Of a stretch of DNA of 64,000 bases, positions 26,887 through 63,762 are shown in pieces (within the stretch, counting starts at the first letter, position 1; each line of letters starts with the position of its first letter). The notes under the pieces were generated by a model. The model had not been told where the DNA came from. It made no database searches and was given only the letters and a program-made list of their open reading frames with translations. Source of the DNA: Actinomycetota bacterium (lineage in GTDB: Bacteria > Actinomycetota > CADDZG01 > JAHWKV01 > JAOPZY01); assembly GCA_035765775.1 (NCBI GenBank), contig DASTWV010000040.1, positions 62,001 through 126,000 on the forward strand. Direction: 5' to 3'. Both the position numbers and the translations under genes were made by a program.

Positions 26887-26916
26887 CGAATAAGATCAGG
26901 AACAAACGTTCGACAA
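26887..26916 (-). promoter_or_regulatory. Candidate distal dcw promoter (P2) with embedded LexA-like box
   Basis: Minus strand TTGTCG (26911-26916), 18-base spacer, TATTCG (26887-26892). The spacer contains GAACGTTTGTTC (26900-26911), a perfect GAAC-N4-GTTC element of the Gram-positive/actinobacterial LexA type. The promoter match is modest; the box match is good. Confidence 0.4.
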
Positions 26917-57898: not shown

Positions 57899-59116
57899 TC
57901 ATGGAAGAAGCGTACCCAGCTGCACGGCATGGTCCCCGAAGCGGCGGCGGATTTCGTCGAGGGCACCCTCGGCCGCCGGCCAGCGCGGACCGCCCTCCAG
58001 GGAGATCTGCTCCGAGGCCGGCCAGTCGCCCAGCTGGCCCACCGAAACGCCCAGAAGGCGCACCCTCACATTGGAGGGGCTGGTGGCCGACGCCTTCAGT
58101 GCGGTGGCGCACAGGCTCCGGGCGGTGGCATAGATCGGGGCCGTGGAGTCCACCTCCCAGGCCAGGGTCCGTGCCCGGGTCACCGTCACGAAGGAGGCGT
58201 AGCGCACCTTCACCGTGATGGTCCGGCCGCTGATGCCCTGCCCGCGCAGCCGGGAGGACACCCGGTCGGCCAGGCCCAGCAGGCCCCGGGCGATCTCCTC
58301 GTCGGCCACCAGGTCCCGCTCGAAGGTCTCCTCGGCCCCCACCGACTTGCGGGGCGGGTCGGCCACCACCCTACGGTCGTCGATCCCCGCCGCCAGCTTG
58401 GCGATCTGGGTACCGAGCGACCCGAGCGCCCGGGTAAGCGTCTCGGGGGGCACCGCCGCGATGTCGCCGATGGTACGCAGGCCCAGGCGGTCCAGCAGCT
58501 CCTTGGTGCGTTCCCCCACCCCCCACAGCTCGCCCGCGGGGAGCGGGTGCAGGAAGGCCTCGACCCGGTCGGGCTCGACCAGCACCAGCCCGTCCGGCTT
58601 CGCCCGCCGGGAGGCCAGCTTGGCGAGGAACTTGTTGGGCGCCAGCCCGGCGGAGACCACCAGACCGGTGGCCTCGGTGACTGCGTGGCGGAGCGCCCGG
58701 GCCAGCTCCACGGGCCCGTCGGGGCCGGGCCACATCCGGCTGGCCCCCCGGAGGTCGAGGAAGGCCTCGTCCAGGGCGAGGGGCTCCACCACCGGCGAGA
58801 ACGAGTCGAAGACCTCCCGCACCATCCGGGAGTAGCGGGGGTAGGCCTCGAAGTCCGGGGAGACGAAGATGCCGTGCGGGCAGAGCCGGCGGGCCCGGGA
58901 GGTCGGCATCGCCGAGGTGACCCCGAACCGGCGGGCCTCGTAGGAGGCCGAGGTGACCACGCCGCGGGACGACGTGCCCCCCACGATGACCGGCTTGCCG
59001 GCCAGGGAGGGGTTCTTCAGGATCTCGACCGAGGCGTAGAAGGCGTCGAGGTCGGCGTGCAGCACAGGCGTCGGCCATCGCTCCGCCTCCGGCACGGCTG
59101 TCTCGGGCCGGCTCAC
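57899..59116 (-). CDS. dinB: DNA polymerase IV (Y-family, DinB)
   Basis: 405 aa from GTG 59116, overlapping the dnaE stop (GTGA). Translesion polymerase. Catalytic carboxylates are intact: VLHADLDAFYASVEIL (metal Asp, start of palm) and VEPLALDEAFLDL (Asp-Glu pair). GLAPNKFLAKLASRRAKPDGLVLV, the HhH region LWGVGERTKELLDRLGLRTIGDIA, and the little-finger domain from about 250 follow. Unlike ImuB, the polymerase site is complete. The C-terminus lacks an obvious QLxLF clamp motif, though QISLEGGPRW could serve. A weak hairpin (57866-57887) follows the stop. Confidence 0.94.
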   Translation of the reverse strand: MSRPETAVPEAERWPTPVLHADLDAFYASVEILKNPSLAGKPVIVGGTSSRGVVTSASYEARRFGVTSAMPTSRARRLCPHGIFVSPDFEAYPRYSRMVREVFDSFSPVVEPLALDEAFLDLRGASRMWPGPDGPVELARALRHAVTEATGLVVSAGLAPNKFLAKLASRRAKPDGLVLVEPDRVEAFLHPLPAGELWGVGERTKELLDRLGLRTIGDIAAVPPETLTRALGSLGTQIAKLAAGIDDRRVVADPPRKSVGAEETFERDLVADEEIARGLLGLADRVSSRLRGQGISGRTITVKVRYASFVTVTRARTLAWEVDSTAPIYATARSLCATALKASATSPSNVRVRLLGVSVGQLGDWPASEQISLEGGPRWPAAEGALDEIRRRFGDHAVQLGTLLP

Positions 59117-62100
59117 CGGCCCGCCGACCCCGGGCTGGCGTGCCAGAACTTGACGGCCGGGCCCCGATCCTGCTGGCCGCCCTCCTTCTTCAGCTTCGCC
59201 AGGTCGATGACCTCCTCCCCCACCACCGACACCCCCCGGGCCCCCGTCCGGCGCAGGGTGCCCCGTACGGCGAGTATCCACCCGTCGAACACGCACCGGG
59301 CGTAGCGGGCCTGGGCCTCCTCGAACAGGGCGATCTCGGCGACCCCGGTCCCGTCGTCCAGCGACAGGAAGATCACCCGCTTGCCCGAGCGGATTGGCGG
59401 GGTCTGGGTGGCCACCTTCACCCCGGCCACCACGATCGGCGTGTTGCCCCGGCGCCGGAGGAGCTGGGCGGCCGGCGTCCAGCCCACTTGGCGCAGCTCC
59501 TCGCCGTAGAACTCGACCAGGTGGTGGGAGGCGTCCATGCCCAGCACCTCCAGCTCGGCCTCCACCCGCTCCCGGGGCGTGTAGTCCGCCAGGCCGGGGA
59601 GGCGGATCTGTTCGGCGACGGCCAGGTCGAAGCTCAGCTGCGTCACTCCGGCGCTCCGCCCCTGGCTACGCTGTCCCCCCTCCCGCTCCCGGGCAGCCCA
59701 GGCCTCCTCGATCTGCCACCACAGCTCCCTTCTTGGCCGTCGGGTGATCGAGTCGAACGCCCCGCAGTGCACCAGGGCCTCCACCACTGGCCGGGAGACC
59801 GCCGCCCGCCGGCAGAAATCGCCGAAGTCCTTCCAGGGGCGGCCCTGCAGGATCGAGGCGATCTCGTCCTTCGAGATGCCCTTGACGTCCTGGAGGGCGA
59901 GGCGGATGCCGGCACCCTCCGTTTCGTGATCCAGAGGCGTTCGTTCCACCCGGTAGTCCGCCCAGGAGGCGTTGACGTCCACACCCAGGATCGGCACCCC
60001 GTGCGCCCGGGCGTCGGCGAGGATCGCCCGCCGGGGGTACATCCCGGGGTCATGGGTCAGCACCCCGCAGTAGAACTCGGCCGGGTGGTGGGCCTTCAGC
60101 CAGCACGACTGGTAGGTGGGCACGGCGAACGCCGCGGCGTGCGCCTTGCAGAACCCGAAGGAGGCGAAGGCGGCCAGCTCCTTCCAGACCCGCTCGGCCG
60201 CCTCCCGCTTCCAGCCCCGGGCCACCGCCTGGTCCAGCAGCTCGGGGCCGACGGTGGCCAGCGCCTCCGGCTTGTCGAGGAGCCGGCGGATGCGGTCGGC
60301 CTCGCCCAGGTCCCTGCCGTTCATGGCGGCGATGATCCGCATCACCTGCTCGTGGTAGACGACCACGCCTTGGGTCTCGGCCAGGATCGGCCGGAGCGAC
60401 GGGTGGGCGTAGGCCGCCGGCGCCAGGCCCATGCGGCGCTCGATGAAGGGCCGCACCATGTCGGACTTCATCGGGCCCGGGCGGAACAGCGAGATGTCGA
60501 CGATCAGGTCCTCGAAGGCGTCGGGCTGGAACTTGCCCAGCAGCTCCCGCTGGCCGGGCGACTCGATCTGGAAGCACCCGAGGGTGTCCGAGGCCCGGAT
60601 CAGGTCGAAGGTGGCCCCGTCGGTGCGCTCCAGGGTGTCGATGTCGGGCCGGGTGCCGTCGATCCGCTCGACCTCGTCCAGGGTGTGGGCGATCGTCGAG
60701 AGCATGCGCACCCCCAACACATCGAGCTTGGCCAGCCCGAGGGCCTCAACGTCGTCCTTGTCGAACTGCGAGACCAGGAACCCCTCGTAGGAGCGCTGCA
60801 TCGGCATGAGGGCGGGGAGGGCCTCGTCGGAGAGGATCACCCCGGAGGGGTGCAACGCCAGGTGGCGGGGGTAGCCATCGAGGCGGGAGGCCAGGTCGAA
60901 GAGGGTCTCCAGCCGGGAGGCGGGCAGGGTGAGCTCGGCCACCTCGGGCAGCGCCTCCAGGGCATCGGGGATGGCGCCCGCCGAGATGTGCGGGAAGGCC
61001 TTGGCCACCAGGTCCACCTCGCTGGGCGGCAGCCCGAGGGCCTTGCCCACCTCCCGCAGGGCGGCCCGGGCCCGGAAGGTCTCCATCATCGCCACCATGG
61101 CGCAGCGCTTGCCGTAGGTGGCCAGGATGTAGGCGTTGACCTCCTCCCGGCGGGCGGACTCGAAGTCCACGTCGATGTCGGGGATCTCCTTGCGGTGCTC
61201 GTTCAGGAAGCGCTCGAAGACCAGGCCGTAGCGGATCGGGTCCACGTCGGAGATCCCCAGCACGAAGGCCACCAGCGACCCGGCCGCCGACCCCCGGCAG
61301 GCACACCGGATGGCGAGCTCCTTCTTGGCATGCTCGACGATGTCGGCCACCAGCAGGAAGTAGCCGCAGAACCCGCCCCGCCGGATGGCCCGCAGCTCGG
61401 TCTGGAGGCGGTCCTCGATGGTCCGGGTGAGCTTTCCCGCTACCGGGGGGTAGCGCCGCCGGACCCCCTCCCAGCACCGGCGGGCGAGGATCTCGGTGGA
61501 GGACATCGTCCCGGAGGCCCCGCCCCGTTCGGCGGGCAGCGAGGGGAAGTGGAAGGTGCCGAAGGGCAGCTCGTAGGCACAGCGCTCCGCCACCCGGGCG
61601 GCCCCGGCGATGGCCTCCGGCGGGTGCAGCGCCCGCATGGCGGCCGGGGGCTTCAGGTCGTACTCGGCGTTGGTCCGGGGGGCGGTGGCGGGCGAGAGCG
61701 CCACGATGCGCCGGATGCAGTCCAGCACCTCGTGCATGACGGCGTCGGAGCGGTCGGCGTAGTGCACGTTGTTGGTGGCCACCACGTCGGCCCCCAGCTG
61801 CCGGGCGATGTCGAGCAGGTGGGCGGTGCGCTCGGCGTCGCCCGGTTCCAGGTGGTTGGCGACCTCGATGGCGAAGTCCGCCCCGAACACCTCCCGCCAG
61901 CGCCGGGCCGCGGCGGCGGCCTCCTCGGCCCGCCCGAGCCCCGCCAGCCAGGGCACCTCCCCCCGGGTGCAGCCCGAGAGCGCCACCAAGCCCTGGGCGT
62001 GCTCGGCGATCGCCGCGAAGCTGGTCCGGGGCCGCCGGCCGGGAGGCAGCGACTGCGCCCGCTCGTCGAGGTGCATGGCGGTCACCAGGGCGCACAGGTT

Positions 62101-62361
62101 GGCCCACCCCTGGGCGTCCTTGGCCAGCAGGACGGCGTGGTAGCCCTCACCCCACTCCACCTCGGCGCCCAGGATGGGGCGGATCCCTGCCGCCCGGCAG
62201 GCCTGCGAGAAGCGCACCGCCCCGTACATGCCGTCGTGGTCGGTGAGCGCCAGCGCCCCCATGCCCTGCTCGGCGGCCCGCTGGGCGAGGTCGTCCACCC
62301 GGGCCGCCCCTTCCCGGAGCGAGTAGTGGGAGTGGACATGGAGATGGACGAAGGGATCCAC
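59113..62361 (-). CDS. DNA polymerase III alpha subunit, DnaE2-like (error-prone)
   Basis: 1082 aa, GTG start at 62361. PHP domain HLHVHSHYSLREGAARVDDL and LALTDHDGMYGAVRFSQACR; polymerase palm with the Asp motif EIPDIDVDFESARREEV; fingers and beta-binding domain follow, with an OB fold near the end (VVAGVKVATQTPPIRSGKRV). The length and the DHDGMYGAVRF-type N-terminus fit DnaE2, the damage-inducible alpha subunit, better than the ~1180-residue replicative DnaE1. Context agrees: it lies in a LexA-boxed operon between DUF6504 and dinB. The replicative DnaE is expected elsewhere. Confidence 0.93.
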   Translation of the reverse strand: MDPFVHLHVHSHYSLREGAARVDDLAQRAAEQGMGALALTDHDGMYGAVRFSQACRAAGIRPILGAEVEWGEGYHAVLLAKDAQGWANLCALVTAMHLDERAQSLPPGRRPRTSFAAIAEHAQGLVALSGCTRGEVPWLAGLGRAEEAAAAARRWREVFGADFAIEVANHLEPGDAERTAHLLDIARQLGADVVATNNVHYADRSDAVMHEVLDCIRRIVALSPATAPRTNAEYDLKPPAAMRALHPPEAIAGAARVAERCAYELPFGTFHFPSLPAERGGASGTMSSTEILARRCWEGVRRRYPPVAGKLTRTIEDRLQTELRAIRRGGFCGYFLLVADIVEHAKKELAIRCACRGSAAGSLVAFVLGISDVDPIRYGLVFERFLNEHRKEIPDIDVDFESARREEVNAYILATYGKRCAMVAMMETFRARAALREVGKALGLPPSEVDLVAKAFPHISAGAIPDALEALPEVAELTLPASRLETLFDLASRLDGYPRHLALHPSGVILSDEALPALMPMQRSYEGFLVSQFDKDDVEALGLAKLDVLGVRMLSTIAHTLDEVERIDGTRPDIDTLERTDGATFDLIRASDTLGCFQIESPGQRELLGKFQPDAFEDLIVDISLFRPGPMKSDMVRPFIERRMGLAPAAYAHPSLRPILAETQGVVVYHEQVMRIIAAMNGRDLGEADRIRRLLDKPEALATVGPELLDQAVARGWKREAAERVWKELAAFASFGFCKAHAAAFAVPTYQSCWLKAHHPAEFYCGVLTHDPGMYPRRAILADARAHGVPILGVDVNASWADYRVERTPLDHETEGAGIRLALQDVKGISKDEIASILQGRPWKDFGDFCRRAAVSRPVVEALVHCGAFDSITRRPRRELWWQIEEAWAAREREGGQRSQGRSAGVTQLSFDLAVAEQIRLPGLADYTPRERVEAELEVLGMDASHHLVEFYGEELRQVGWTPAAQLLRRRGNTPIVVAGVKVATQTPPIRSGKRVIFLSLDDGTGVAEIALFEEAQARYARCVFDGWILAVRGTLRRTGARGVSVVGEEVIDLAKLKKEGGQQDRGPAVKFWHASPGSAGR

Positions 62362-62394
62362 TGAATTCAGGTGGGTTCTCGGGCGGGACCGGGC

Positions 62395-62433
62395 GCGAGT
62401 GCAGATGGCGAGTGCAGATGGCGAGTGCAGATG
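62395..62433. repeat. 13-bp tandem repeat x3 upstream of dnaE
   Basis: gcgagtgcagatg three times in a row, plus gcgag, within the 106-bp gap between the DUF6504 stop and the dnaE start. Because 13 is not a multiple of three and the region is non-coding, slippage is tolerated there. Confidence 0.92.
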
Positions 62434-62467
62434 GCGAGGAAGGGGTAGGCGGCCTAGTGCGGTGCCC

Positions 62468-62791
62468 TCAGTCCCACACCCTCGCCAGCCGCCAGGCCTT
62501 GGCCCCGGTGGGCCCGGGGGCTCCTGTGGGCCCGGAGACGCCGGAAGCGGTCAGGCGGTCGAAGGTAAGGTCATAGGTAAGGTCGTAGACGCCTCCCTCC
62601 GCCTCGACCCGGAAGCACTCCCGGTCCCGCGCGCGCTGCGGGTCCCACCACTCCCCTGCCTCCCTCCAGTACTTGAGGAGGCCCCCGACGACGTAGCGCC
62701 GCCCCCGCCAGGAGAACGCCGAAGGCTGGCGCAGGCCGGGCCCTGGTTCGGCCCATTCGACGTCGATCTGGTCGTTGTAGCGTTTGGTCAC
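62468..62791 (-). CDS. DUF6504 family protein of the DNA-damage polymerase cassette
   Basis: 107 aa, GTG start at 62791. Small basic-acidic protein: KRYNDQIDVEW, then PSAFSWRGRRYVVGGLLKYWREAGEWW and DRECFRVEAEGGVYDLTYDL, then a short GPTGAPGPTGA collagen-like stretch before the end. As I recall the family, DUF6504 proteins accompany dnaE2 and Y-family polymerase genes in actinobacteria, and this is the same arrangement. Biochemical role unknown, perhaps an adaptor in the mutasome. Expression should be damage-inducible through the box at 62803. Confidence 0.8.
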   Translation of the reverse strand: MTKRYNDQIDVEWAEPGPGLRQPSAFSWRGRRYVVGGLLKYWREAGEWWDPQRARDRECFRVEAEGGVYDLTYDLTFDRLTASGVSGPTGAPGPTGAKAWRLARVWD

Positions 62792-62802
62792 AGGGCGTCC
62801 TC

Positions 62803-62814
62803 GAACGTGTGTTC
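62803..62814 (-). promoter_or_regulatory. LexA-like (SOS) box of the DUF6504-dnaE-dinB operon
   Basis: GAAC-GTGT-GTTC; with flanks, CGAACGTGTGTTCC matches all positions of the CGAACRNRYGTTYC consensus. It lies 12 bp before the DUF6504 start and just downstream of a good promoter. Confidence 0.85.
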
Positions 62815-62829
62815 CGAGAGGGGAGGAGC

Positions 62830-62859
62830 ACCGTACACCTGTTCGTGCAGCCCTGTCAA
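62830..62859 (-). promoter_or_regulatory. Promoter of the DUF6504-dnaE-dinB operon
   Basis: Minus strand TTGACA (62854-62859), 18-base spacer, TACGGT (62830-62835). It begins right after the toxin gene stop and precedes the LexA-like box. Confidence 0.65.
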
Positions 62860-62894: not shown

Positions 62895-63308
62895 TCAGGG
62901 AAGGAGCTCGAAGGCCGCCCGGTGGGACGGGCACACCACGCTGAAGTGGCGCCGATCGAGCGTCACGATCACGCCAATCCCCAGCCGTTCGGCTGCCGCC
63001 ACGATGGATGCATCGACCGTCCCGAGCGGCAGGTCCCGGTAACGGGCCACCAGGGTGGCCATGCGCAGCCAGTCCGCGGCGTGGACCGGCTCTGCGATCA
63101 GTGTCCCGGCGGCGAGATCTCCCAAGAAACGCACCTCGGCCTCGACACCCAGCCGGGTTGCCGCCAGATAGGAGACTTCCGATACGACCAGCGTGGGCAC
63201 CATCAACGGCCCGGGATGCTGCTCCAGGAGCGCCCGGCTCGCCGCATGGTGCCGGTCGTCGGCATCGATGGCGGCGTACAGGGGCCCGGCGTCGACTAGG
63301 ACGGCGAT
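62895..63308 (-). CDS. PIN-domain toxin (VapC-like), no usual start codon visible
   Basis: From the codon ATC at 63308 the product is 137 aa with a complete PIN nuclease core: VLVDAGPLYAAID (first Asp), VVSEVSYLAATRLG (Glu), LGTVDASIVAAAERLG (third acid) and VTLDRRHFSVV (fourth). Expected to be an RNase (tRNA or mRNA cleavage) held inactive by the antitoxin. The reading frame has no ATG, GTG or TTG between the preceding in-frame stop and TTG 63206, yet the catalytic Asp lies upstream of 63206. So either a rare start (ATC 63308), a -1 frameshift from the antitoxin, or a sequence error applies. It overlaps the antitoxin end by 13 bases. Confidence 0.78.
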   Translation of the reverse strand: MAVLVDAGPLYAAIDADDRHHAASRALLEQHPGPLMVPTLVVSEVSYLAATRLGVEAEVRFLGDLAAGTLIAEPVHAADWLRMATLVARYRDLPLGTVDASIVAAAERLGIGVIVTLDRRHFSVVCPSHRAAFELLP

Positions 63309-63583
63309 CTTCCGGGCTCCCTCTGCCCGAGTTCCTGCTGCCCGAGTTCCTGCTGCCCGAGTTCCTGCCGCAGAATCTCTTCGAGAATGTCAGAGATGTC
63401 GCTGCGCCCACTGCGGCCTGCCCCCGCTGACAGAAGTTGCCGGCGGGCGGGCCCATCGGCGGCGCTCAGATACTGCGTGATGGCGGCACGTGTCACCTCG
63501 GACACGGTCCGGCCGCTGCTCTGCGCCTCGTGGCGGAGCAGAGCGTCAAGCTCGTCCGGCAGTTTCACGGTGGTCCGCCTCAT
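63296..63583 (-). CDS. Ribbon-helix-helix antitoxin (CopG/VapB-like)
   Basis: 95 aa from ATG 63583. N-terminal RHH DNA-binding domain: MRRTTVKLPDELDALLRHEA (beta strand RTTVKLP) and GRTVSEVTRAAITQYL. The C-terminal region binds the toxin (about 50-80) and ends in QELGQQELGQQELGQ repeats from a 15-bp tandem repeat. It precedes and overlaps the PIN toxin gene. An 18-bp palindrome abuts the start codon and is the expected autoregulatory operator. Confidence 0.85.
   Translation of the reverse strand: MRRTTVKLPDELDALLRHEAQSSGRTVSEVTRAAITQYLSAADGPARRQLLSAGAGRSGRSDISDILEEILRQELGQQELGQQELGQREPGRSPS
63320..63363. repeat. 15-bp tandem repeat x3 at the antitoxin 3' end
   Basis: Three nearly identical units of the form ctgcccgagttcctg lie in frame, encoding GQQEL-type repeats just before the toxin overlap. 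Copy-number change would alter antitoxin length without a frameshift. Confidence 0.9.
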
Positions 63584-63600
63584 GGTATGCCAGCATACCA
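63583..63600. promoter_or_regulatory. 18-bp palindrome at the antitoxin start (operator)
   Basis: TGGTATGC-CA-GCATACCA, perfect 8-bp arms around two bases. The first base is the complement of the A of the antitoxin ATG, so the operator reaches the start codon and any transcript must be leaderless or start further upstream. Confidence 0.8.
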
Positions 63601-63762
63601 ACGGAGACGCAGCCTGCAAAGCATCGCCGAGCGAGTCGGAGTCTGTGAGTGCTGAGGTCCCTATAGCACCCCTAAACACTCACAGGCGACAAGGGCACGG
63701 GATCCGGGGGGTTGCCGCCCCCGCGTGCCAGGATTCGTGCGGGGGTGTCGAAGGGGCGCGTC

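Follow-up and report, generated by a model that had tools for sequence, protein, structure and literature searches.

A predicted LexA-controlled translesion synthesis operon of DUF6504, a DnaE2B-type polymerase and a Y-family polymerase with an intact catalytic triad in an Actinomycetota genome

Introduction

What kind of DNA polymerase system is encoded when a small protein of the DUF6504 family, a DnaE2-like polymerase and a DinB-like Y-family polymerase share one operon? The question is raised by a stretch of 64,000 nucleotides (nt) from an Actinomycetota bacterium (GCA_035765775.1, contig DASTWV010000040.1, positions 62,001 to 126,000), hereafter called the window, in which the operon segment occupies positions 57899-62859 of the minus strand. 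A preliminary description of this segment suggested a possible two-polymerase version of the mutasome. Such an arrangement is not new: a set composed of DnaE2B, an active Y-family polymerase (PolY), a standalone ImuB C-terminal domain (ImuB-C) and RecA had already been predicted computationally for Actinobacteria, with Tessaracoccus lapidicaptus as the example (PMC12926913, NAR 2026). The comparisons of sequences reported here suggest that the window operon is a well-supported member of the kind predicted in 2026. It is probably a LexA-repressed, damage-induced translesion synthesis module in which DnaE2B and an active PolY would be combined with a standalone ImuB-C and RecA.

Gene content and conservation of the operon

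Three minus-strand genes stand in the list of open reading frames in the order DUF6504, DnaE2-like polymerase gene and dinB (Table 1). Pfam found DUF6504 in the small upstream protein, DNA_pol3_alpha (E 1.4e-75) along with the other expected DnaE domains in the second product, and IMS (E 4.9e-46) plus IMS_C in the third. The longest dinB frame is 57899-59296, with 465 amino acids (aa). Because homology begins late within this frame and a GTG at 59116 forms a 4-nt overlap (GTGA) with the end of dnaE, this GTG is probably the start, and the gene is probably the shorter one listed in Table 1. With these reading frames, Pfam matches and likely start, the coordinates and gene calls of the preliminary description stand.

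Across Actinomycetota, 80 loci show the same order and orientation, DUF6504-dnaE-dinB, among them loci of Janibacter, Intrasporangium, Propionibacteriaceae, Nocardioidaceae, Frankiales, Nanopelagicales and Streptacidiphilus. Because some stretches are represented more than once (L061 and L125 appear to be identical), independent genomes are slightly fewer than loci. In these loci dnaE and dinB often overlap or abut. We did not find this recurrence described in the literature examined. In Actinomadura, DUF6504-dnaE occurs with no Y-family gene nearby, and in Streptomyces dnaE lies beside an inactive Y-family gene; these arrangements correspond to neighboring types in PMC12926913.

Identification of DUF6504 as a standalone ImuB-C

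No mention of DUF6504 was found in the literature searched. Its Pfam model, PF20114, matched the C-terminus of Methylocapsa ImuB above cut-off (28.9 bits, residues 430-504), and the annotated product of this ImuB gene is "DUF6504 family protein"; the matches at the ImuB C-termini of Rhizobium, Paracoccus and Agrobacterium were below cut-off. A hidden Markov model (HMM) of DUF6504 built from cassette proteins only matched Agrobacterium ImuB weakly (E 0.03), and profile-profile comparison was therefore used: hhalign of a 37-protein DUF6504 profile against eight ImuB C-termini gave a probability of 95.5 (E 1.4e-8). The AlphaFold2 model of DUF6504 is all-beta, with six strands (pLDDT 81.5). Neither a Foldseek search with this model nor a single-sequence search with DUF6504 found a counterpart in the PDB, the former result being consistent with the literature, in which ImuB-C was described as a beta-barrel that has no close relative in the PDB (PMC12926913). 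Two earlier studies, of 2013 and 2019, had already reported ImuB-C as a standalone protein (PMC3765255, PMC6511836).

As judged from these profile matches, DUF6504 is the C-terminal domain of ImuB encoded as a separate protein, and because of this identity the gene set resembles a split ImuB whose Y-family half may still be active. The earlier proposal of DUF6504 as the only accessory is probably incorrect: the protein is not a new accessory but ImuB-C, and the DinB tail described below points to a probable further partner. In a separate group of loci (L083, L098, L102, L104, L115 and L116), DUF6504 immediately precedes an active Y-family gene that belongs to another clade, and there is no dnaE.

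Regulatory region and probable LexA control

The operon is preceded by a promoter-like sequence, TTGACA-N18-TACGGT, to which a generic sigma-70 scan gave no score. The LexA box noted in the preliminary description is present as the proximal box of Table 1; it is not the only one, as a second box, matching 9 of 10 consensus positions, lies in the promoter spacer and overlaps the -10 element. The combination TTGACA-N8-CGAACAGGTGTACGGT is identical, except for the 8-nt spacer, in two relatives (L058 and L059), one a same-family and one a same-order genome, whose DnaEs are just 81 and 67% identical to that of the window. L059 has a complete second downstream box, CGAACAAATGTTCG, at the place of the proximal box, and in L058 the stretch read stops inside a similar downstream box.

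Throughout the genome, the pattern CGAAC-N4-GTTC occurs at 12 sites per strand versus 3 and 5 for the reversed pattern; LexA-type sites are more frequent than expected by chance. Several of them precede genes that, from translations read by eye, resemble recA, lexA, uvrB, a UvrD/PcrA helicase gene, dnaB and a radical-SAM gene, among which Pfam confirmed recA only. When the 400 nt upstream of the DUF6504 domain were searched in the related operons, a box with at least 9 of 10 positions was found in 54 of 80 (3.0% of control windows) and a perfect 10/10 box in 48 of 80 (0.13% of control windows). The consensus also agrees with that determined by chromatin immunoprecipitation sequencing (ChIP-seq) for Streptomyces venezuelae LexA, tCGAAC-N4-GNNCGa (PMC9380542). 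Because of the two boxes, the conserved promoter, both sets of controls and this agreement, LexA control of the operon is strongly supported at the sequence level, and the earlier view of an SOS-boxed cassette is borne out.

In the same genome, several perfect LexA-type boxes occur at the starts of similar genes in L004, L008, L009, L023 and L026; by eye, these repeated genes resemble DUF222/13E12 HNH-type proteins, which suggests a repeated SOS-linked family. A perfect GAAC-N4-GTTC at 26900-26911, about 250 nt before an mraZ-like gene, may be due to chance. The genome's recA (G000:C53:57109-57702 region; L204, 574-2745, minus strand) contains an apparent intein, as a LAGLIDADG endonuclease domain interrupts RecA within the 724-aa frame, which also gives a weak intein-splicing match; SOS induction may hence depend on RecA protein splicing.

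The Y-family polymerase and its RecA-like tail

As stated in the preliminary description, DinB keeps its catalytic carboxylates (D82, D176 and E177, numbered in the 465-aa frame), and nearly every complete Y-family gene of the related cassettes likewise encodes the whole triad. In a 50-protein tree, ImuB and related inactive homologues (iPolY) formed one clade with a support of 100 in the Shimodaira-Hasegawa-like approximate likelihood ratio test (SH-aLRT), the only support measure calculated for our trees, which were built by a quick method. The window DinB was placed outside this clade and grouped with relatives of its class. No other Y-family gene, and no imuB, was found in the genome.

When the DinB tail profile was compared with RecA N-termini by hhalign, a probability of 90.6 and a score of 24.3 were obtained, the maximum in 200 column shuffles being 13.6. 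The tail thus appears to resemble the RecA N-terminal oligomerization motif, which makes RecA a likely fourth partner, probably in place of ImuA'.

These observations bear on the alternative that the enzymes are independent and only co-regulated, with DinB acting alone as Pol IV, DUF6504 and DnaE2B forming a two-part complex of their own, and the operon being shared for damage induction only. DUF6504-dnaE operons without a nearby Y-family gene in Actinomadura and others, as well as a DnaE2B-[ImuB-C] type listed in the literature (PMC12926913), are in line with such a division, and DinB, as the sole Y-family polymerase of the genome, must cover any Pol IV work. However, the order and linkage of dnaE and dinB are kept in 80 loci, with the genes often overlapping or abutting, and DinB carries the RecA-like motif that the literature ties to multi-subunit PolY complexes (PMC12926913). 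We therefore consider independent action rather unlikely.

The DnaE2B-type polymerase and its PHP site

The catalytic aspartates of the window DnaE are intact (Table 1). In a 54-protein tree it belongs to a 39-row clade (SH-aLRT 100), together with nearly all other cassette DnaEs and those of Streptomyces and Actinomadura, separate from the ImuAB-linked DnaE2A (SH-aLRT 98) and from the DnaE1 proteins, among them that of the same genome. Judged from the 54 proteins of this tree, the placement matches the DnaE2B group of PMC12926913. NCBIfam scores for DnaE1 and error-prone polymerase were 821.9 and 759.8 bits, respectively, both below cut-off. The replicative DnaE1 was rejected as an identity for the window protein, which the tree places outside DnaE1; the genome's other DnaE, at C40:38623, has a full PHP site and groups with Escherichia coli DnaE1. 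Neither of the two placements named as refuting in the preliminary description, DinB within ImuB and DnaE within DnaE1, was obtained.

A C-terminal WHxSxGSxG tail is conserved in most DnaEs of the 39-row clade, including Streptomyces and Actinomadura, and is possibly a partner-binding peptide; at the same place, many ImuAB-type DnaE2s carry SRDF[HR] (PMC3919608). A clamp-binding motif of the type listed in Table 1 has been described for actinobacterial DnaE2 (PMC3919608). The PHP residues of the window DnaE and its closest relatives read HHEHEHCNH, with two substitutions relative to DnaE1 (D to E and D to N). Three class relatives (L061, L067 and L071) have the full HHDHEHCDH, the same as the genome's DnaE1, and the site is lost in most other cassette DnaEs. 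Neither the tail nor this class-specific PHP retention was found described in the literature examined.

The PHP residues suggest a second alternative, a relatively accurate gap-filling module in which DnaE2B would proofread and the operon would serve damage tolerance rather than mutagenesis. The two-site difference in the window and the full site in three class relatives would fit this role, but any deviation from the PHP motif was counted as inactive in PMC12926913, the actinobacterial DnaE2A in L222 also retains most of the site, and Mycobacterium tuberculosis DnaE2, whose subgroup retains most of the PHP site, is mutagenic (PMC3919608). An accurate gap-filling function is thus quite improbable.

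Relation to the ImuA'-ImuB-DnaE2 mutasome and evaluation of the evidence

ImuA queries matched recA or nothing in this genome, the assembly of which is 95.8% complete, so that neither imuA nor imuA' was found, whereas the same queries do find ImuA' in genomes G046 and G016; the absence of imuA' reported in the preliminary description was thereby reproduced. That the operon encodes a canonical mutasome, with ImuB mistaken for an active polymerase or imuA' overlooked, is scarcely credible: LexA control, the ImuB-C relationship and the general gene content are in common, but the active-site triad is present, DinB lies outside the ImuB clade, DUF6504 is a separate gene, DnaE falls in a separate clade and ends in WHASPGSAGR instead of an SRDF tail, and part of the question would be reopened only if imuA' lay in the ~4% of the genome that the assembly does not cover.

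Several points weigh against a damage-induced, RecA-associated translesion synthesis module. No box with at least 9 of 10 positions was found in the searched 400 nt of 26 of the 80 related operons. An HMMER search with a DinB-tail HMM failed to find RecA, which was found by profile-profile comparison alone. The near-intact PHP site of the window DnaE argues for some proofreading. In Streptomyces coelicolor, disruption of dnaE2 was without phenotype (cited in PMC3919608).

Table 1. Features of the operon and its regulatory region (positions in the window)
Feature	Position	Strand	Basis
-35 element TTGACA	62854-62859	-	Sequence; conserved in relatives L058 and L059
-10-like element TACGGT, 18 nt from -35	62830-62835	-	Sequence; conserved in L058 and L059
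Distal LexA box CGAACAGGTGTACG	62832-62845	-	Position in promoter spacer; identical 14-mer in L058 and L059
Proximal LexA box GGAACACACGTTCG	62802-62815	-	Position between promoter and DUF6504 start
DUF6504 protein, standalone ImuB-C domain, 107 aa, GTG start	62468-62791	-	Pfam PF20114, E 7.9e-14; profile match; AlphaFold2 model
dnaE2-like gene, 1082 aa, DnaE2B-type alpha subunit, catalytic D395, D397, D547	59113-62361	-	Pfam, alignment, tree
Putative beta-clamp-binding peptide QLSFDL in DnaE	59623-59640	-	Q invariant in nine aligned sequences
DnaE C-terminal peptide WHASPGSAGR	59116-59145	-	Alignment, tree
dinB-like Y-family polymerase gene, likely 405 aa	57899-59116	-	ORF, Pfam, catalytic residues, GTG overlapping dnaE stop
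Putative beta-clamp-binding peptide QISLE in DinB	57995-58009	-	Sequence; similar Q-x-x-L at same place in many relatives
RecA-NT-like motif AEGALDEIRRRFGDHAVQL near DinB C-terminus	57917-57973	-	hhalign of tail profile

In the gap between DUF6504 and dnaE, three perfect repeat copies with 13-nt spacing are present at 62395-62438, and their copy number could vary. Directly upstream of the operon and on the same strand (62895-63679), Pfam identified ribbon-helix-helix and PIN-domain proteins, a pair resembling VapBC-type toxin-antitoxin systems.

Proposed mechanism and implications

LexA would bind both the box that spans the promoter and the one immediately downstream, and would keep the operon repressed until its cleavage is induced by activated RecA. 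DUF6504, DnaE2B and the Y-family polymerase would then be made together from one transcript, and the GTGA overlap suggests translational coupling of the two polymerases. The DinB tail could dock on RecA and DinB on the beta clamp, with RecA taking the place of ImuA', and DUF6504 may tie DnaE2B to the complex, probably via the DnaE PHP domain, as was modeled for ImuB-C (PMC12926913). In contrast to ImuB, this Y-family protein should be capable of inserting nucleotides opposite lesions on its own; insertion and extension could therefore be shared between the two polymerases, and either may do either. The genes, their placement in the trees, the LexA boxes, the intact active-site residues and the lack of a detectable imuA or imuB are direct observations, and complex assembly, RecA docking and mutagenic output are inferred from them. 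A further reading is that an SOS-induced mutasome of the window's actinobacterial class would distribute insertion, extension and editing over its subunits, with a Y-family inserter and a C-family extender that has a working PHP exonuclease tied together by free ImuB-C and RecA; this is unlikely, and we offer it only tentatively.

To our knowledge, no experiment has been carried out on any active-PolY version of the mutasome, and the window operon provides a clean, widely conserved example of the predicted type. Its separate DUF6504 and seemingly active Y-family subunit resemble a stage that the literature proposes for the origin of ImuB, namely fusion with ImuB-C followed by loss of the active site. 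Culturable related strains could be used to test this idea and to see if both active polymerases act jointly on the same lesion. In addition, a domain of unknown function gains a name and a testable role.

Comparison with known systems

The mycobacterial ImuA'-ImuB-DnaE2 mutasome shares SOS control, a DnaE2-type polymerase and the ImuB-C module with the window operon, but its ImuB has no catalytic activity and carries ImuB-C as a fused domain, ImuA' forms part of the system, and DnaE2 has the SRDF tail. The Streptomyces dnaE2-dinP (scDinB2) operon is LexA-controlled, its DnaE falls in the same 39-row clade, and the WHxSxGSxG tail is present in three of the four DnaEs compared; in contrast, it has neither an active Y-family protein nor a neighboring DUF6504 gene. 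After mitomycin treatment of S. venezuelae, dnaE2 was up-regulated 30.6-fold and the adjacent dinP 13.7-fold, and two LexA boxes were reported (PMC9380542).

In Deinococcus deserti, ultraviolet mutagenesis requires ImuY, DnaE2 and RecA (PMC8072749). According to its published description, this system resembles the window operon in placing DnaE2, a Y-family protein and a standalone ImuB-C under LexA control and in lacking imuA, and its need for RecA in mutagenesis parallels the role proposed for RecA here. It differs in that lexA is part of the operon and the genes are ordered differently. The T. lapidicaptus type, for which three Propionibacteriaceae loci of the same family (L151, L152 and L161) served as stand-ins, has in common with the window an active PolY, a standalone ImuB-C, a DnaE2 outside the ImuAB-linked group, the lack of ImuA and ImuB in the genome and restriction to Actinobacteria; what sets the window lineage apart is that the PHP site of its DnaEs is still complete or almost complete.

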